32,396 bases of DNA. Origin: Verrucomicrobiaceae bacterium. GTDB lineage: Bacteria > Verrucomicrobiota > Verrucomicrobiia > Verrucomicrobiales > DEV007. The stretch spans positions 1-32,396 of the forward strand of contig JAAYAT010000071.1 in NCBI GenBank assembly GCA_012719225.1, in the 5' to 3' direction. The notes under the pieces are model-generated. The model was not told the DNA's origin and did no database searches. It saw only the letters and a program-made list of their open reading frames with translations. Below, piece by piece: positions 22,152-32,251 of the stretch; the first letter of the stretch is position 1; each line of letters begins with the position of its first letter. Made by a program: the position numbers and the translations under genes.

Positions 22152-22407
22152 GAGACGGTTGAGTCGGTTCGGCGGGTGGGTGGCTTCACCATACCCGAAC
22201 CCGGCCGCTCGAAAAAGTCCCTGATCGAGTCCTCTCATTCGTCTCCTCCCGAGCGGAAGATGGCGTGGGATGGCTCGCCCCGACCCCGCCCCTTCCTTTT
22301 TCGGGAGGATTCGCCGGAGAGCGCACGACTTGCTTTCCCCCTGAAAACGGCGAACTTTCCCTCCATTTTCCTTCTTTTCGCACGCAAAAAATCCCCCTTT
22401 CCTCTCC

Positions 22408-23673
22408 ATGAAACGATTTCTGCGTGCCACCCTGCCCCTCTTCATTCTGGGGGTCTGCGGGTTCCTCGCCTGGTGGTTCATCGCCCACCGTCCGGAACTG
22501 GCGACGATGGAAATCCCTCCCCCGGTCGTGAGGGTGGAGGCCACCGCCTTGAAAAAAACGAGTTTCCCCGTGGTCGTCCAGTCCCAGGGCACGGTGCAAC
22601 CACGGACCCAGAGCAGTCTCCTCCCCGAGGTCTCGGCGAAGGTGGTCGAGCTGAGTCCCTCCTTCCGCCCCGGCGGTTTTTTTGACCAGGGCGAAGTGCT
22701 CCTGCGGCTCGATCCGGTGGACTACGAAACCGCGATCGTCATCGCCAAGGCCACGCTCGCCCAGGCCGAGGTGACGCTTGCCGAGGAAAAAACCAAGGCC
22801 GATCAAGCGAGGGCGAACTGGCGCACCCTCGGCAAAACCGGGGAACCCAGCGCCCTCGCCCTGCGGCTGCCCCAAGTCGCCAAGGCGGAGGCCGATGTCG
22901 CCTCGGCCAAGGCCCAGATCGCCAAGGCCGAGCGCGATCTCGAACGCACCGTCATCCGGGCCCCCTACGACGGGCAGGTCCTCGAACAGCTCGTCGATGT
23001 CGGCCAGTACGTCACCGAGGGCACCTCGCTGGGGAGGATTTTCGCGGTCGATTACGTCGAGATCCGCCTGCCGCTGCCGGAGCGGGAAATGCGTTTTCTG
23101 AATCTGCCCGAGCGCTTCCGCGACGGCGAGGTCTCCGCCCCGAACGCGCCGGTTCGTTTGCAATCCCGCATCGACGGCGAAGCGGTCGTCTGGACGGGCG
23201 AAATCGTGCGGGTCGAGAGCCGGATCGACGAGGCCACCCGTCAGGTCACCGCGGTCGCCCAGGTCGACGATCCCTACGCCCGGCGCGGAACGGACCGCCC
23301 TCCCCTGAAGATCGGCCAGTTTCTCGAGGCGGGGATCCAGGGAGAAACCCTCAGCAATGTCTTCATCATCCCGCGCCGGGCGGTGCGCGCCGGCAACGAA
23401 ATTCTCCTCATCACCGAAGGGAACAAGCTCAGCCGCCGGACGGTGGATCCGCTCATCAGCGACGAAAATCAGATCGTGATTGCCGCGGATGCCCCGCGCT
23501 CTCCCGCCGAGGGCGACATCCTCTGTCTCACCCCCATTCCCTTCGCCGCCGAGGGGGCCACCGTCCTGCCGACGATAGACGGCGCTCTGGAGAATCCGTT
23601 GGGAAACCGTCCCGAAAGCAGCGGTGCGGGCACCGTCGGCGCTCCCCCCGCCCGCGAGAAATCCTCTTCGTAA
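22408..23673 (+). CDS. RND efflux periplasmic adaptor (HlyD/AcrA type)
   Basis: The 421-residue protein has an N-terminal anchor or signal (LPLFILGVCGFLAWWFI). Then come a lipoyl half-motif (SQGTVQPRTQSSLLPEVSAKVV), the FFDQGEVLLRLDPVDYE strand and a long coiled-coil hairpin rich in Ala/Lys/Glu (about 115-175). The second lipoyl half follows (TVIRAPYDGQVLEQLVDVGQYV), then a beta-barrel and a membrane-proximal domain. It bridges an RND pump to an outer-membrane channel. It ends 12 bases before the pump's ATG, so the two are one operon; no TolC-like gene is in view. The ATG at 22408 has no clear ribosome binding site, only pyrimidines. Substrate unknown. Confidence 0.92.
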   Translation: MKRFLRATLPLFILGVCGFLAWWFIAHRPELATMEIPPPVVRVEATALKKTSFPVVVQSQGTVQPRTQSSLLPEVSAKVVELSPSFRPGGFFDQGEVLLRLDPVDYETAIVIAKATLAQAEVTLAEEKTKADQARANWRTLGKTGEPSALALRLPQVAKAEADVASAKAQIAKAERDLERTVIRAPYDGQVLEQLVDVGQYVTEGTSLGRIFAVDYVEIRLPLPEREMRFLNLPERFRDGEVSAPNAPVRLQSRIDGEAVVWTGEIVRVESRIDEATRQVTAVAQVDDPYARRGTDRPPLKIGQFLEAGIQGETLSNVFIIPRRAVRAGNEILLITEGNKLSRRTVDPLISDENQIVIAADAPRSPAEGDILCLTPIPFAAEGATVLPTIDGALENPLGNRPESSGAGTVGAPPAREKSSS

Positions 23674-23685
23674 GATGTGTCGTCC

Positions 23686-26600
23686 ATGATCGCCTGGTTT
23701 GCCCGCAACGGCGTCGCCGCCAACCTGCTGATGATGGCTGTCATGGCGGCCGGCTTGTGGACCCTGTGGTCGGACAAAATCCCGCTCGAAGTCTTTCAGG
23801 ATACCCCTTCGCGTTTCATCTCCGTCAACGTCCCCTACCCCGCCTCCTCGCCCGAGGAGACCGAGGAGACCATCGTCATCAAGATCGAGGAGGCGATCCA
23901 GCAGGTCGGCGGTATCAAACACGTCAATTCCACCGCCGGCAGCGGGGGCGGGACCGTGGTCATCGAGGTCAACGAGACCGAAGATCCGCGCCGCGTCATG
24001 GAAGACGTGAAAATCCGGGTCGATGCCATCCCGAATTTTCCCGCTCTCTCGGAAAGGCCCATCATCCAGCTCGACGATTCCTTTCACTCCGTCATCACCG
24101 TGATCCTCAGCGCCGACATGGCCGAGAAGGATCTCAAACGGCTCGCCGAACAGATCCGCGACGAACTTTCCTCCCTGCCGGGCACCTCCCACGCCGAGAT
24201 CGGCGGGATCCGGGATGAGGAAATCGCCATCGAGATCCCCGAGGCGACCCTGCGGAAATACAATCTCAGCCTCGAGGCGATCAGCCAGGCGATCCGGGCC
24301 AGCGCCATCGACCTGCCCGCCGGAGTCGTCCAGACCGAGTCGGGCGATGTCTCCATCCGCACCCGCGGCCGCGCCTACACCGGCGAGGACTACGCCCGCG
24401 TCCCCGTCCTGACCCGCCCCGACGGGAGCAAGCTCACCCTCGGCGAGATCGCCAAAATCATCGATGGTTTCACCGAGGATCCCCTCATCGTGAAACTGAA
24501 CGGACGCCCCTGCGTCATGATCACGGTGATGCGCGAGGGCAATCAGAACGCCATCACCATCGGCGAGCGGGTCAAAGACTACATCGCCTCGGCCAACAGT
24601 ATCCTCCCGAGCGGGGTCCAGCTCGACTACTGGAACGACCGATCCCGCATCGTCAAAGGCCGCATCGACCTGCTGCGGGAGAACGCCCAGAGCAGTCTCA
24701 TCCTCGTGTTTATCTGCGTGGGGCTCTTCCTGCGGCTGGAGGCGGTCATCTGGATCGGCATGGGCATGATCATGAGTTTCCTCGGGGCCTTCGCCCTGAT
24801 GCCCTATCTCAACGTCACGATCAATCTCTCGTCGCTGATGGGATTCATCCTCGTACTTGGGATCGTCGTCGACGACGCCATCGTCATCAGCGAGAGCTGC
24901 GACTACTACCGAAGTCGCGGGCTCAACCCGCTCGATGCCGCGATCCGGGGGACGAAACGCATGGCCGTGCCCATCACCTTCGGCGTCATCACCACGGTGG
25001 TGGCCTTTCTCCCCATGGCCCTCGACACGACCGATTGGGGCAACATGTTCCGCCCCATCGCGGTGGTCTTCATCGCGGTGATGCTCATCGCCCTCGTCGA
25101 GACCAAACTCATCCTCCCGAGCCACCTCGCCCATCCTTTTCTCGGTCGGGCCGGCGATCTGCTCCGCCCGGTGCATCGTTTCTCCGGAGCGGGCCTGCAG
25201 TGGTTCATCAATCGCGTCTACCGCCCTTCGATCCGGTTTTGCGTGGACAATGCCTACGCCTCTCTCGCGGTGATGCTCGGCGGCCTCGCCATCCTCATCG
25301 GCCTCTATTTCGGCGGACACATCCAGACGGCCTTTTTCCCCCGCATCCCCAGCGAACGCATCGACTGCCGCCTTTCCATGCTCGAGGGAACCCCCTTCGA
25401 AGTCACTGACAAACACATCCAACGCATCTACGAGATCGCCGAGGAGATGCGCGACGAGTACGTCGGTCCCGACGGCCGCAGCGTCATCAAAAACATCGTC
25501 GCCTCCACCGGCACCACCGTGTCCCGGGGACGGCGCATGACCAATTCCCCCGGCTCCCATATTGGCGGGGTCGTCATCGAAACCTACGGCCCGGAAGAGC
25601 GCAGCCTCGAAGCCAACACCGTCGAGATGGCGGCGGAATGGCGCAAACGCATCGGCACCATCGTCGGGGCCGAGGAAATCACCTTCCGCGCCGAGTTCAT
25701 GCGCAGCGGCGATCCCATCGACATTCAACTCACCGGCCCCGAACCCGACGAACTCCTCGAAGTGTCCGAGGAGATCAAACTCTACCTCTCCCAGTTCCCC
25801 GCCCTTTTCGACATCAACGACTCCCTCGATTCGGGGCGGAGCGAGATCCAATTGCGGCTCAAGCCCGAGGCCCGCCAGTTCGGCGTGACCGTCAACGATC
25901 TCGCCAGCCAGGTGCGGCAGGCCTTTTACGGCGACGAGGTCCAGCGCATCCAGCGCGGACGCAACGAAGTCAAGGTGATGCTGCGGCTCCCCCGCGAGGA
26001 ACGGCGCAGCCTCGACACCCTCGACACGATGCGGGTGCGCACCGACGACGGTCTCGAGATTCCCTTCAGCAGCGTGGCCGAGGCCAGCGTGGTGAAAAGT
26101 TTCACCAGCATCCAGCGGGTGGATCGCCGCCGCGCCCTCAACATCACCGCCGACGCCGACAAAAAAACCGTCGACATCGAGCAACTGCGCGCCGAAACCG
26201 GCATCTTTCTCGACGAACTGCTCGCCAACCGCACCCACATCCGCTGGAGCTTCGAAGGCGAAGCCCGCTACCAGAGGGAAAGCAGCGCCCACATGGCCGT
26301 CTCCCTCGTCCTCATCCTCGCGGGGATGTACGCGATCCTCGCCATTCCCTTCCGGAGCTACACCCAACCCTTCATCGTCCTGCTGGTGATTCCCTTCGGC
26401 GCCGTCGGCGCGGTCCTCGGCCACGTCTTCCACGGCATCCCCGTCAACATCATGTCCCTCTTCGGCATCCTCGGCGTTTCCGGTGTGATCGTGAACGACA
26501 CCCTTCTCCTCGTCGACGAGATCAACGACCTCCGCGCCAAGGGCATGCCGCTGCGCGAGGCCGTCCAGCGCGGCGGAGTCCACCGGTTCCGCGCCATTTT

Positions 26601-26910
26601 CCTCACTCAGATCACCACCTTCTTCGGACTCGTCCCGCTGATTTTCAACGGCACCTGGGTCGCCAATCTCGCGCCCTTCTTTTTCAGCACCGGAGCCCAG
26701 AGCACCCACGCCCAGTTCCTCACCCCCGTCTCCGTGGCGATGGGATACGGCTCCCTCTTCGCCACCGTGATCACCCTTTTCCTCGTTCCCCTCACCTACA
26801 TCGCCATGGCCGACCTCGGCCACTGGATCGGAAAAATCCGCACCGATTGCAAGGAAGCCTGGCTCGGGAAACCCGCGACGGGAACCGGCGGCGCGACCGA
26901 AGCTGGCTGA
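23686..26910 (+). CDS. RND efflux transporter permease
   Basis: The 1074-residue protein has the full RND layout: a first helix (NGVAANLLMMAVMAAGLWTL), a large periplasmic loop, and a helix bundle containing GIVVDDAIVISE (about 394-403) with the proton-relay Asp pair. A second half follows with a further loop and LGVSGVIVNDTLLLVDEIND (about 930-948). It belongs to the AcrB/HAE branch, in the SWIM-type group similar to MdtB-like pumps. It exports drugs, detergents or lipids using the proton gradient. The ATG at 23686 is preferred because MIAWFARNGVAAN is the usual opening; a GTG at 23677 would add three residues. It is preceded by the adaptor gene and convergent with the 26928 gene. Confidence 0.95.
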   Translation: MIAWFARNGVAANLLMMAVMAAGLWTLWSDKIPLEVFQDTPSRFISVNVPYPASSPEETEETIVIKIEEAIQQVGGIKHVNSTAGSGGGTVVIEVNETEDPRRVMEDVKIRVDAIPNFPALSERPIIQLDDSFHSVITVILSADMAEKDLKRLAEQIRDELSSLPGTSHAEIGGIRDEEIAIEIPEATLRKYNLSLEAISQAIRASAIDLPAGVVQTESGDVSIRTRGRAYTGEDYARVPVLTRPDGSKLTLGEIAKIIDGFTEDPLIVKLNGRPCVMITVMREGNQNAITIGERVKDYIASANSILPSGVQLDYWNDRSRIVKGRIDLLRENAQSSLILVFICVGLFLRLEAVIWIGMGMIMSFLGAFALMPYLNVTINLSSLMGFILVLGIVVDDAIVISESCDYYRSRGLNPLDAAIRGTKRMAVPITFGVITTVVAFLPMALDTTDWGNMFRPIAVVFIAVMLIALVETKLILPSHLAHPFLGRAGDLLRPVHRFSGAGLQWFINRVYRPSIRFCVDNAYASLAVMLGGLAILIGLYFGGHIQTAFFPRIPSERIDCRLSMLEGTPFEVTDKHIQRIYEIAEEMRDEYVGPDGRSVIKNIVASTGTTVSRGRRMTNSPGSHIGGVVIETYGPEERSLEANTVEMAAEWRKRIGTIVGAEEITFRAEFMRSGDPIDIQLTGPEPDELLEVSEEIKLYLSQFPALFDINDSLDSGRSEIQLRLKPEARQFGVTVNDLASQVRQAFYGDEVQRIQRGRNEVKVMLRLPREERRSLDTLDTMRVRTDDGLEIPFSSVAEASVVKSFTSIQRVDRRRALNITADADKKTVDIEQLRAETGIFLDELLANRTHIRWSFEGEARYQRESSAHMAVSLVLILAGMYAILAIPFRSYTQPFIVLLVIPFGAVGAVLGHVFHGIPVNIMSLFGILGVSGVIVNDTLLLVDEINDLRAKGMPLREAVQRGGVHRFRAIFLTQITTFFGLVPLIFNGTWVANLAPFFFSTGAQSTHAQFLTPVSVAMGYGSLFATVITLFLVPLTYIAMADLGHWIGKIRTDCKEAWLGKPATGTGGATEAG

Positions 26911-26927
26911 ACCGGCCCGCCGGAACG

Positions 26928-27773
26928 TTACTCGCCGGTCAGCGTCAGGACCGCGAAAACCGGTCGGTGATCCGAGGCCATCGCTTCGTCGATGACCCGC
27001 GTCTCCTCGACCCGGAACTGAGCCGCGGAGCGGTAGAAGATGTAGTCGATCCGCGAAGTCGGGTTCTGCGACGGCACCGTCGGCGCGGCGGTCTCGTCGA
27101 TCGCGTTTTTCCACTTTGTTAGAAGCACCCCGACCGGTTCCGCATCGGGCGTGGCGTTCATGTCCCCGGTGAGAATGGTCGGCAACGTGTCCCCCTCGGC
27201 CGCGAAAAGCTCGTTGATGGCGTGGGCCTGATCGACCCGGTCGCTCTCGACATTGTGCTGGAAATGCGTGCTGATGAATCGCAAAGGTTTGCCGTCGGGA
27301 CCCTCCACCGTCACCGCGATGGCCGCCCGCGGGTAGGTTGTCAGTTCGGGCGTCGCCTCGGTGTAGGGGAGCGGATGGATGAGGACGTCGAGAACCGGCA
27401 GGTTCGTGAGCACGGCATTGCCGTAGAGGCCACCCTGGTAGTGTTGGGTCGGACCGTAGTAGCTTTTCAAACCGCACAATTCACCGAGTTTCGCCGCCTG
27501 GTGGACCTTGCCGGAGCGCCGCACCATCACGTCCACTTCCTGCAGCGCGACGAGGTCGGGCTTGACCGCCCGGATCACTTCGGCGAGCCGCTCCAGATCG
27601 TAGACGCCGTCATTGCCCTGTCCGTAGTGGATGTTGTAGCAGAGCACGCGCAGGGAGGATTTCCCGGTGGAATCCGGCGAATCCTGCGCCGGGAGGGTCG
27701 TCGTCAGGGCCATGATACCGAGGATAAGCCCGCCGAGAGGCTTTGCCAGAGAGGGAAGAATGTTTTTCAGCAT
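26928..27773 (-). CDS. Secreted endonuclease/exonuclease/phosphatase-family protein
   Basis: The 281-residue protein has a signal peptide (LGGLILGIMALTTTLPAQ). It shows the EEP fold signatures: VLCYNIHYGQG at the N-terminus, PDLVALQEVD with the metal-binding Glu, THFQHN, TGDMNATPD with catalytic Asp/Asn, RIDYIFY, and a final SDHRPVFAVL with Asp/His. All catalytic motifs appear intact. Family members hydrolyse DNA, phosphoinositides or sphingomyelin; a secreted member like this may act on nucleic acid or phosphodiester substrates outside the cell. The ATG at 27773 is chosen over an earlier frame start because the signal peptide begins there. It is convergent with the RND permease gene, 17 bases apart. 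Confidence 0.9.
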   Translation of the reverse strand: MLKNILPSLAKPLGGLILGIMALTTTLPAQDSPDSTGKSSLRVLCYNIHYGQGNDGVYDLERLAEVIRAVKPDLVALQEVDVMVRRSGKVHQAAKLGELCGLKSYYGPTQHYQGGLYGNAVLTNLPVLDVLIHPLPYTEATPELTTYPRAAIAVTVEGPDGKPLRFISTHFQHNVESDRVDQAHAINELFAAEGDTLPTILTGDMNATPDAEPVGVLLTKWKNAIDETAAPTVPSQNPTSRIDYIFYRSAAQFRVEETRVIDEAMASDHRPVFAVLTLTGE

Positions 27774-29292: not shown

Positions 29293-29580
29293 TCAGTAAC
29301 GGGGACCGTAGTAGCCCGGCGCGGGCTGTCCGTATTGCTGTTGCTGCTGCATTTGCTTTTTCTCCTTGTTGGAGCCGATCGCGCCCCCGGCGAGACCACC
29401 GACGGCCCCTCCGATGAGAGCTCCGGTACCACGATTGCCGTCACCGGCGACCAGTGCGCCGATCCCGGCACCGGCGGCACCGCCCGTTGCGGCTCCCCGC
29501 TGGGTGGGGGAACATCCGATGGAACTCCCCGCGAGCGCAATGGCCGCGACAACTAGAAACGAAGAGGCGAGTTTTTTCAT
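29293..29580 (-). CDS. Glycine-zipper lipoprotein
   Basis: The 95-residue protein has a lipoprotein signal ([15 protein letters not shown]) with the lipobox Cys at residue 23. It then has a glycine-zipper stretch ([17 protein letters not shown] and [16 protein letters not shown]) and a Gln-rich, tyrosine-rich tail ([19 protein letters not shown]). It should be anchored to the outer or inner membrane, and resembles the many YMGG/glycine-zipper-2TM proteins linked to envelope stress or OmpA-type assembly. Its ATG overlaps the TGA of the NlpC/P60 gene as ATGA, so translation is coupled. A strong terminator follows its stop. Confidence 0.88.
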
Positions 29581-30308
29581 GGTGGAGAAGTTTCGCTTTT
29601 CTTAACTAAACTTTCAAGAAATGTTTTGAGGGGATTCGGCTTTTCCACGGGAACCGGTTTTGGCTCCTCTTTCCGCAAACCGGGAATGGGGCCGAAGCCG
29701 ACGAACCGGGATTTCGACTCCTCGTCCGGCACCACCCAATCGAAGACACTGACCCCGTGAATCGTTTTCCCGCGATAGCGACGCCCGCTGCTCGCGCCGA
29801 AGACGACACCCTGTCCGTCCTCTTCCAGCGTTCCGAGGAAAATCATGACGTGCGAGATCGCGGGGAGCGCCTCCCCCGTCTCGTAGGTCCCCTCCCAGAA
29901 GAGCAGATCGCCCGGTTTCAGCTCCGCGAAAATCGGATCTCCGGTGTCGCTCACCCCGGGAGTCTCCCGCAGCTTGCCGGAGGCCTCGACCCATTCGTAA
30001 AAATCCCGCGAAGACCGAGGGAGCGCCCCGAGACCGAGATCCGAGAGCGCGAACTGCACCGTGCCGGAGCAGTCCATCCCGCCTTTTTTCGGGGAATTGG
30101 AGCCGAACCGGTAGCCCAGTTTCTTTTTTGTCAGCGCCAGGGCATCCTCGATCAGTTCTTTCACCTCCTCGGGCTGGGCCTCGTATTCCACCAGATCCGT
30201 CGGGCGAATCGAGGCCACTGCGACCTTTTCGGCCCGGACCGGAGCGAGGGTCAGGACGCTGAACAGGGTCAGCCCGACGATCTGACAGGGTTTTCCGGAA
30301 CGATGCAC
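29577..30308 (-). CDS. Secreted NlpC/P60-family peptidoglycan endopeptidase
   Basis: The 243-residue protein starts with a short signal segment ([17 protein letters not shown]). The NlpC/P60 catalytic core shows Cys80 in [18 protein letters not shown], and His153 in ISHVMIFLG, with the third polar residue expected a little later. It should cleave peptide stems of cell-wall peptidoglycan. The C-terminus is proline/lysine-rich. The start is GTG at 30308; a sigma-70-like promoter places the transcript start at about the same base, so the message may be leaderless. The stop overlaps the glycine-zipper lipoprotein start (ATGA), tying a wall hydrolase to an envelope lipoprotein. Confidence 0.88.
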
Positions 30309-30611: not shown

Positions 30612-31808
30612 TCATCCGGGAGGCGGCGGCCACCAGTCCGCGACGCGGAGGTCGGCATCCAGAAGCCGGGCGAAATAGATCGTGGTGCGGCCGTTCCGGA
30701 CGGCGGGCTTGAGGTTGCGCGAGTGGAAGCAGTGAAACACTGCGTGGGCCATGAAGAGCATCAGCCAGAGCACGAGGATGGAGTTGGGATGGTGGTGGAA
30801 GACGTGCCCGGAGTTCCAGTGGGTGCACAACTCGTTGAACCCCTCGTTCTCGATCTTCCAGCGGTCGTGGCCGAAGTCGAACACCGCCCGCCCGGTCGCG
30901 AGCGATGCCGACATGGTCGTGGCCCAGTACCAGGTCGAGTCCACGGGGGTGGTCTTCCACTCGTGGGCGACGCGTTCGCGCTTGACTCCGGTCTCGTGGG
31001 CGTGGACCACCCGCAAGGGCGTAGCGATGGTCTCGGTGGTGAAACCCTCGGCTTGGCGCAGCTCCACCGAGCGTGCCGGACAGCCTCGCTTTGCCTTCCG
31101 GAACTCCTCGGGAGCTTCGGCGGGTAGCAGCCTGCGGGCCTCGTCGAGCAGCTCGGGCTGGTTGGCCTTGAGCGTGGTGACCAGGTGCTTGCCCCGGGCT
31201 AGCAGAACAGCAATCATCGAGGGACGCAGGTAGATCGCGTCGCAGGTGAGCACGTCGAAGCAGCGGGGGTGGTTGTCGAGCACCCTTGCGACCAGCCGCA
31301 GGGCTGCTGCGACCTCGTCCTCGCCGGGGAGCACCGGCTCCAGGTCGAGGTGGAAGCGGAAGCCTTCCGAGATGATCTGCAAGACGACGATGCGGTGGTA
31401 GTATTGGGTGCGCGTCGAGCTTCCTGAGGCGACCTGCCTCTGGAGACAGCGGTGGCAGCAGCGCTTGTAGCTTGAGTGGGTCTCGTGTCCGTCGATGGCG
31501 GCGAGCATCCATCCGTGGCTGGGGGACAGAACCTTGTTGCGTTTAAGTCGGCTGTGGATATGGCCCAGGCACTCACGCAACCCGTCAAGTTCGATCCTCT
31601 CGGAGACGTAGCTCAGTTCGTCGGCGCAAGGCAGGCGCCACCCTCCGAGCCAGCGCCGCATCGCCGAGGAGGAGCGTTGCTGTTCGAGAGCATTGAAGCT
31701 GGGCTGCCTACAGGCGAACATCGCGAAGAAGGCGCGGGCGAACACCTCGGTGGGAATGAGTGCCCAGGAGCGCGAGTCGCTCACCTTCCGCCGCCATGTC
31801 TCGCGCAA
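30612..31808 (-). CDS. DDE transposase of the IS4/ISNCY type
   Basis: The 398-residue frame has the three acidic residues expected of a DDE transposase: Asp106 in LAAIDGHETH, Asp190 in LTCDAIYL, and Glu320 in RWKIENEGFNELCTHW (the R-x3-E block of IS4-type enzymes). The C-terminal MLFMAHAVFHCFHSRNLKPAVR matches related transposases. The start at TTG 31808 is only the first usable codon: the open frame continues upstream to a TAA at 31880-31878. The extra residues (RFLAYEEKVFRL) look like the normal N-terminus of the family, so the true protein probably begins upstream, perhaps by -1 frameshifting from the preceding ORF. No internal breaks are seen. Confidence 0.85.
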   Translation of the reverse strand: MRETWRRKVSDSRSWALIPTEVFARAFFAMFACRQPSFNALEQQRSSSAMRRWLGGWRLPCADELSYVSERIELDGLRECLGHIHSRLKRNKVLSPSHGWMLAAIDGHETHSSYKRCCHRCLQRQVASGSSTRTQYYHRIVVLQIISEGFRFHLDLEPVLPGEDEVAAALRLVARVLDNHPRCFDVLTCDAIYLRPSMIAVLLARGKHLVTTLKANQPELLDEARRLLPAEAPEEFRKAKRGCPARSVELRQAEGFTTETIATPLRVVHAHETGVKRERVAHEWKTTPVDSTWYWATTMSASLATGRAVFDFGHDRWKIENEGFNELCTHWNSGHVFHHHPNSILVLWLMLFMAHAVFHCFHSRNLKPAVRNGRTTIYFARLLDADLRVADWWPPPPG

Positions 31809-31843
31809 GCGGAAGACCTTCTCTTCGTAGGCTAGGAACCGGG

Positions 31844-32251
31844 CTAGGATGAGGTGGGCGGGGCTGGGGGTTTTCGTTTACCGGAGCCGGCGGAGGGCCG
31901 AGCCCGGCTCTTGTGCTCCTTGAGCCTGGCGCGCCCCTGCGAGTTGATCCCCTCGATGAGCGCGAGTGCCGCCCGGCAGTCCTCGACCCACTGGCGGACG
32001 GTCTGCTCAAGATGCTTGGGCACGTAATCCATGGTGGTCTTGCCCTCGTGGGTCCGCCCCAGGTAGAGCGATCGGTGCTTGGCGTCCTCGTCGGTGGCGC
32101 AACGGCAGGAAGGCTTGCCGCAGCGTCGGGCGACCTCGATAAGACTGCCGTGGATCATCCCCTCGGATCGGGAGAGCAGCTGGTGGAGCTGGCTGCGGAG
32201 GCGGCGCTCCTCCGGAGGGAGGGAGACAAGGTTGACTGGGCGGCGGGCCAT
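31844..32251 (-). CDS. DUF6788-type protein upstream of the transposase
   Basis: The 135-residue protein carries IHGSLIEVARRCGKPSCRCATDE, then HRSLYLGRTHEGKTTMDYVPKHLEQTVRQWVEDCR. This is the Cys-containing pattern of the DUF6788 family that is often found near transposases. The C-terminus is basic and proline-rich (ARPSAGSGKRKPPAPP), possibly for nucleic-acid binding. It starts at ATG 32251 after an AT-rich stretch. Its TAG stop at 31846-31844 lies inside the open frame of the transposase, which is in the -1 register relative to it. Its role in transposition is unknown; a regulator or frameshift-fusion partner is possible. Confidence 0.75.
   Translation of the reverse strand: MARRPVNLVSLPPEERRLRSQLHQLLSRSEGMIHGSLIEVARRCGKPSCRCATDEDAKHRSLYLGRTHEGKTTMDYVPKHLEQTVRQWVEDCRAALALIEGINSQGRARLKEHKSRARPSAGSGKRKPPAPPTSS

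Follow-up and report, generated by a model that had tools for sequence, protein, structure and literature searches.

Organization of the locus

The window, i.e. the whole stretch of 32,396 nucleotides that was analysed, comprises an entire contig and contains near its edge two overlapping genes, which are located on the minus strand, as are all window features given below. The first gene (ORF1, 31844..32251) starts with the ATG at 32251, ends with the TAG at 31846-31844 and encodes a protein of 135 amino acids. A preliminary description of this DNA had assigned it to the DUF6788 type, which is supported by a match to PF20586 (E 4e-18); the sequence CGA AAA CCC CCA, proposed there as a slip site, is likewise present in the frame of ORF1 (31865..31876), within a stretch coding for KPPAPP. 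The second reading frame (30612..31877, 421 codons and a stop codon) codes for a transposase (PF01609, DDE_Tnp_1, E 3.5e-5) and lies in the -1 frame relative to ORF1, with an overlap of 34 nt. It is open from 31877, just after a TAA (31878..31880), to the TGA ending at 30612. No ATG, GTG or TTG occurs in it ahead of the TTG at 31808-31806, which is thus its first canonical start codon, as had been noticed before.

The stop codon of ORF1 overlaps a leucine codon of the transposase frame in the letters CTAG (31844..31847; TAG of ORF1 and CTA of the transposase). Together with the preceding ATC codon of the transposase frame (31848..31850), which is the candidate near-cognate (re)initiation codon discussed below, the junction reads ATCCTAG. 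Further upstream, a GTG in the transposase frame (31989..31991; Shine-Dalgarno (SD) duplex -1.9 kcal/mol) overlaps the tryptophan codon of ORF1 at 31990-31988, and the frame which it opens is closed by the TAA mentioned above. The genome (3.98 Mb, 443 contigs) contains one match to the transposase. The element is a two-gene insertion sequence, consisting of a Tn5/IS4-like DDE transposase gene and an upstream DUF6788 gene.

Upstream of ORF1, the sequence GGGCATTTTCGCATTTG at about 32326-32309 resembles GAGCATTTTCGCATTC in an intact relative (L098) and GAGCAAATTCGCATTC in a degenerate one (L087); it may represent the left end of the element. A significant partner repeat of this sequence was not detected, and a search for terminal inverted repeats by local alignment gave no signal over shuffled sequences in the window (P 0.74) or in L098 (P 0.28). 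Just downstream of the element, the window encodes an NlpC/P60-family protein (29577-30308, PF00877, E 8.2e-8). An open reading frame of 1763 amino acids at 22186-27477 showed no Pfam match at E 1e-5.

The encoded proteins

A structure model of the transposase was calculated from 36 aligned sequences (33 of the 70 listed transposase frames, together with the window, L002 and L003) and reached a mean pLDDT of 87.9 and a pTM of 0.87. Its best fold matches in the PDB were Tn5 transposase structures (1muh, E 3.2e-11); the transposase profile gave no match to PDB sequences at E 0.01. D129, D213 and E343 of the translation occupy nearly invariant columns in the 36 sequences and are, by our own assignment from the alignment, the probable DDE residues. 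E343 is part of the segment RWKIENEGFN, which is itself nearly invariant and corresponds to the IS4-type signature around the glutamate. The PF01609 score is just over the cut-off (24.1 vs. 23 bits), and the protein remained under the cut-off of every NCBIfam IS family that it matched (best 27.2 vs. 115 bits, IS4_1); it is therefore designated Tn5/IS4-like without a family name.

The residues ahead of the TTG had been described as fitting the N-terminus of the family. This holds true, since they are conserved at the protein level and lie inside the first predicted helix (residues 6-22, block pLDDT 66-88), which is coded by 31812..31862 and precedes the TTG (residue 24). Across the 13 codons from the junction to the TTG (codons 0-12 only; later codons were not gap-aligned), the four nearest copies (six pairs) differ at the first, second and third codon position with rates of 0.32/0.17/0.46, the pattern of a translated frame. 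Similar rates (0.31/0.24/0.47) were obtained for the window and L098 over 409 codons, and from the junction onwards the frames of both are intact, with 411 and 410 codons, respectively.

The ORF1 protein contains a cysteine-rich motif (CGKPSCRC), and C44, G45, C49, C51 and H59 are invariant in seven sequences. Its structure model (mean pLDDT 75.8) had no fold match in the PDB at E<=0.001, and its sequence gave a single PDB match (E 0.023), which is unrelated by name. No paper on DUF6788 was found in a collection of openly licensed papers. The ORF1 protein probably serves the element in DNA binding or in an accessory role.

Occurrence and nearest relatives

The window transposase, used as the query, had matches in nine out of 288 genomes from the phylum, in three out of 190 relatives and in five out of 386 genomes from the order, its own genome being counted in each of these three sets. 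Two out of 73 genomes from one genus and 1/1 of another set matched as well, and the protein of L098 matched in four out of 260 genomes from a single family; these genome sets overlap one another. A scan of the genome contigs yielded 141 relatives, and 80 loci were kept. No transposase match was found in plasmids, which gave two weak matches to ORF1 of L098, and none of six candidate stretches from viral contigs was confirmed as a relative.

The nearest copies are the window, L098, L003 and L002; two of these four are broken and, due to their kinship, they do not represent independent tests. The transposase of L098 is intact and 58% identical to that of the window (ORF1 55%). L003 (61%) is cut short by the end of its contig and is also interrupted; L002, with 57% identity in the N-terminal part, is rearranged, carries an internal deletion and has no recognisable ORF1 upstream. 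L093, L099/L197, L198 and L200 were left out due to an unreadable N-terminus, L095, L094, L096 and L097 were regarded as duplicate records of L003 and L002, L199 matches over 38 residues, and L087, L104 and L107 were treated as sister copies.

A start codon (ATG, GTG or TTG) at the junction is missing in three of the four nearest copies, namely the window, L098 and L003, and thus in two of the three relatives with a readable N-terminus. In L098, 54 open codons before the junction codon contain none, and the first one is an ATG 126 nt after it; in L003, the 22 codons available contain none, and a GTG follows 63 nt after the junction. L002 possesses a GTG immediately ahead of the junction ATC, and the upstream sequence in which this GTG lies matches no other locus of the set; it looks as if a start had been needed here once the coupling to ORF1 was lost. 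At the place of the ATC of the window, L002 and L003 also have ATC, and L098 has TTC. No SD pairing precedes the junction (+1.7 kcal/mol in the window, +0.3 kcal/mol in L098).

The stop codon of ORF1 is found at one shared transposase codon (YTAR), as CTAG in the window, CTAA in L098 and TTAA in L003, and the letters CTAA were kept in L002 even though ORF1 is gone. The YTA share of the other leucine codons is 7% in the window, 2% in L098, 7% in L003 and 25% in L002. The ORF1 tails of the window and L098 are of unequal length. An altered genetic code was rejected as an explanation of the missing start: the upstream frame ends at a TAA in the window but at a TGA in L098, and reassignment of a single stop codon would not open both.

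Translation starts in more distant relatives

DUF6788 loci comprised 30 that were fetched among the matches listed, as well as further stretches. Non-redundant pairs of ORF1 and transposase were counted if ORF1 was closed by a stop and the downstream frame matched the HMM of the window transposase, identical junctions being removed. Of 27 such pairs (including both of the near-identical loci L019 and L020, as well as L149 and L155, which are cut by contig ends or by the stretch taken), 21 have the transposase in the -1 frame, four in the same frame and two in the +1 frame. Some relatives start right at the junction, with ATGA in L036 and L104 (the frame of the latter being broken afterwards) and TTGA in L019 and L020. 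Others have an ATG shortly after the ORF1 stop (L107, 5 nt after, and L119). The transposase of L107, which belongs to a sister branch, begins with MNQLAQFLAY where the window reads HLILARFLAY. In the degenerate copy L087, in which ORF1 runs past this point, the sequence ATC TTG CTT occurs with AAGGAG 7 nt before the TTG. Judged from their reading frames, relatives with such recognisable starts would make a separate transposase.

A different arrangement occurs in L023, L085 and L086, in which an ATGA after ORF1 opens a mini-ORF. It contains 8-9 A's in a row and is closed within 10 codons; the transposase is in another frame, and slippage at the A-run may be needed to reach it. The DUF6788-led element L130 carries, near its ORF1 stop, A_AAA_AAA just after a -1-frame TGA, which is a classical frameshift layout. 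In L140 (638-2122), DUF6788 shares a single open frame with an ISKra4-like transposase (E 2.6e-47, under the family cut-off); in L132 (1-1785, minus strand), the open frame continues from DUF6788 into a long C-terminal region without a Pfam or NCBIfam match.

Fifteen of the loci with a -1 arrangement (L082, L083, L084, L088, L119, L128, L129, L131, L133, L136, L148, L149, L153, L155 and L158) were compared; these loci are related and were picked after viewing the alignments, and all statistics given for them are descriptive. Their overlaps amount to about 130-180 nt. The mismatch rates at codon positions 1/2/3 are 0.38/0.29/0.60 in the body of ORF1 and flip to 0.38/0.57/0.44 in codons W+29 to W+34, which indicates that the transposase frame is constrained ahead of the ORF1 stop. 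From a conserved tryptophan codon of ORF1 to the stop, the transposase frame is open in 15/15 loci, compared to a summed expectation of about 4 from synonymous randomisation (first 26 codons). Read in the transposase frame, the tryptophan codon itself yields an ATG in nine loci, a GTG in five and a TTG in one, and nine of the 15 overlaps contain no other NTG. Immediately ahead of the tryptophan codon, ORF1 codons that frequently encode Glu-Glu-Val form a duplex with the anti-SD sequence at -6.4 to -15.9 kcal/mol; this duplex is below the randomised mean in 14/15, and within the lowest 5% of the locus' own randomisations only in L129 and L153.

These patterns suggest that in the 15 distant relatives the transposase probably starts inside ORF1, at the NTG overlapping the conserved tryptophan codon. 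A counterpoint is that several of them have an NTG soon after the ORF1 stop (ATG in L119; TTG in L136, L155 and L128). Frameshifting was rejected for these 15 loci, as an NTG with an SD sequence at the tryptophan codon can explain the constrained frame without any slip. The corresponding GTG of the window is unusable because TAA 31880 ends its frame, and the same applies to the corresponding ATG of L098, which is followed two codons later by a TGA. A tentative and rather speculative picture of the DUF6788-led insertion sequences as a whole would be that their transposase is reached by two or more unusual routes: that many relatives start at the NTG in the tryptophan codon, with the ribosome binding site encoded by the preceding ORF1 codons, and that in the branch of the window this start is dead and the transposase, devoid of a canonical start, is made only by ribosomes fresh from ORF1.

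Proposed re-initiation at the end of ORF1

According to the mechanism proposed here, ribosomes that terminate at the TAG of ORF1 would resume translation immediately in the -1 frame. Their start would be a near-cognate codon within the overlap, for which the AUC at 31850-31848 is the most likely candidate. The product would be a separate transposase, and its output would be low, which would suit a transposase. Termination-reinitiation at the junction, perhaps at this AUC, is the explanation which we put first, at somewhat less than an even chance; both the re-initiation and the choice of the codon are deduced from sequence comparison. It is favoured because the ORF1 stop is located at the same codon in the window, L098 and L003 despite the unequal tails, and because relatives possess separate starts at this place. 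Three of the four nearest copies have no NTG at the junction, yet conserved residues follow directly downstream. In addition, the TTG of L087 with its AAGGAG falls on ATC 31850 when aligned by hand, and neither a conserved slip motif nor, in two folds of the region, a stimulator was found.

The preliminary description had regarded a normal start at this point in related copies as evidence against frameshifting. Such starts do exist in L107 and L104 (ATG) and in L002 (GTG, ORF1 lost), and they are absent from L098 and L003. Several observations also speak against re-initiation: the intact copy L098 has TTC instead of ATC, and L087, L104 and L002 are damaged copies. Initiation at ATT, as given in PMC10666635, reaches about 0.3% of that at ATG, which has to be set against re-initiation at AUC. 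Our confidence was kept at the level stated above because L098 has TTC and because no SD sequence precedes the junction.

Alternative explanations

A -1 frameshift in the tail of ORF1, either programmed or at a low level, would result in a fusion of DUF6788 and the transposase, with slippage on one of the codons AAA, CCA and CCG of the KPPAPP stretch instead of a single strong heptamer. Such a frameshift does not require a start codon, and L140 would represent a precedent of a DUF6788 domain fused in-frame to a transposase. The -1 frame is open ahead of the ORF1 stop in all three copies that keep the ORF1 tail (34 nt in the window, 169 nt in L098 and at least 73 nt, up to the contig edge, in L003), and the -1 overlap, whose conservation in related copies had been named as a check, is present in L098 and L003. 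This openness says little, however, because synonymous randomisation produced ORF1 tails without -1 stops in 51% of trials for L098 and in 79% for the window, the real tail of the latter containing one stop.

The A/C run, in contrast, is missing from the overlaps of L098 and L003 and was rejected as a conserved slip site. No heptamer of the type X_XXZ_ZZN occurs in the overlaps of the window, L098 and L003 (0/3). The slip tetramers differ among the three copies, and no motif is conserved: A_AAA, C_CCA and then C_CCG in the window, G_GGC as the only one in 55 codons of L098, and A_AAG twice in L003. With three Z_ZZN tetramers compared to 2.2 expected from codon-order shuffling, the motif of the window is not beyond chance. 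PMC4066793 ranks slippage in E. coli as A_AAG >> U_UUC > U_UUU > C_CCU = C_CCC > A_AAA. The two A_AAG of L003, the best tetramer in this ranking, would thus favour a slip, while A_AAA of the window is the last of the six tetramers that exceed the background at least fourfold, and C_CCA and C_CCG reach 1.8- to 3.6-fold (PMC4066793). Two pseudoknot-free RNA folds of 87-92 nt were inside the range of shuffled sequences (z 0.69 and -1.30). Furthermore, among 195 loci no ORF matched the HMMs of both DUF6788 and the transposase, and several relatives appear to encode a separate transposase. The proposed slip at A-AAA-CCC is therefore not upheld. Frameshifting as such is possible, without specific support from conservation, and we consider it a real rival, though less likely than re-initiation.

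The start may also have been lost and the copies may be decaying, so that no transposase would be made. In favour of this, the genome of the window has a single copy, which lies at the edge of a contig, and the nearest relatives include two broken copies (L002 and L003) and two fragments (L093 and L099). On the other hand, the frames of the window and L098 are intact over 411 and 410 codons with the codon-position bias described above, the likely DDE residues and a confidently predicted fold are retained, and the absence of a start is common to the window, L098 and L003. Decay is for these reasons regarded as improbable.

A start of the window copy at TTG 31808, which had been offered as the alternative to a fusion and would yield a shortened transposase of 398 residues, is improbable. 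In its favour, it is the first canonical start and is preceded by GAAGAGAAGG (31826-31817; GAGAAGG 8 nt upstream), with an SD duplex of -6.2 kcal/mol, the average across the gene being -2.9 (sd 2.9). However, duplexes of -5 kcal/mol or better occur at 27% of the gene positions, and the relatives have CTG (L098) or CTC (L002 and L003) in place of the TTG. A start there would also cut into the fold, as the residues ahead of it show conservation at the protein level and make up the first predicted helix; it was thus rejected as a conserved start.

Comparison with known systems and significance

Termination-reinitiation, the explanation preferred here, can be compared to IS911 of the IS3 family, in which orfA and orfB overlap, with the second in the -1 frame, and which possesses a recognised frameshift motif with stimulators and an IS3-type transposase. 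For IS911, both AUU-mediated initiation and -1 frameshifting have reportedly been observed. The element of the window resembles it in having two ORFs that overlap in this same phase and a near-cognate AUN codon in the overlap. It differs in that its catalytic ORF is Tn5/IS4-like, ORF1 belongs to DUF6788 and no slip motif is conserved. With frameshifting insertion sequences of the IS1 and IS3 type in general, it has the -1 overlap in common, but the conserved heptamer or strong tetramer is absent. The fold match to 1muh and the segment RWKIENEGFN connect the transposase to the Tn5/IS4 group of DDE transposases (PF01609). IS4, however, consists of a single ORF, whereas two are present here, and the transposase of the window is below the cut-offs of the NCBIfam IS families. 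A further likeness in gene arrangement is found in ATGA-type termination-reinitiation: overlaps of -1 and -4 nt share the same reading phase (PMC10666635), this phase is also found here, and some relatives have ATGA or TTGA. Unlike in these, the junction contains no NTG in the window, L098 and L003, but only ATC (window, L003) or TTC (L098).

If the proposed mechanism is true, transposases of this kind would be shortened or overlooked by gene finders, since their real N-terminus lacks an ATG, GTG or TTG. The apparent internal start in the DUF6788 gene of the relatives represents a testable overlapping-gene design. Re-initiation at the end of ORF1 would furthermore add a Tn5/IS4-like group to those insertion sequences whose transposase depends on the translation of ORF1, in this case without a classical slip site.
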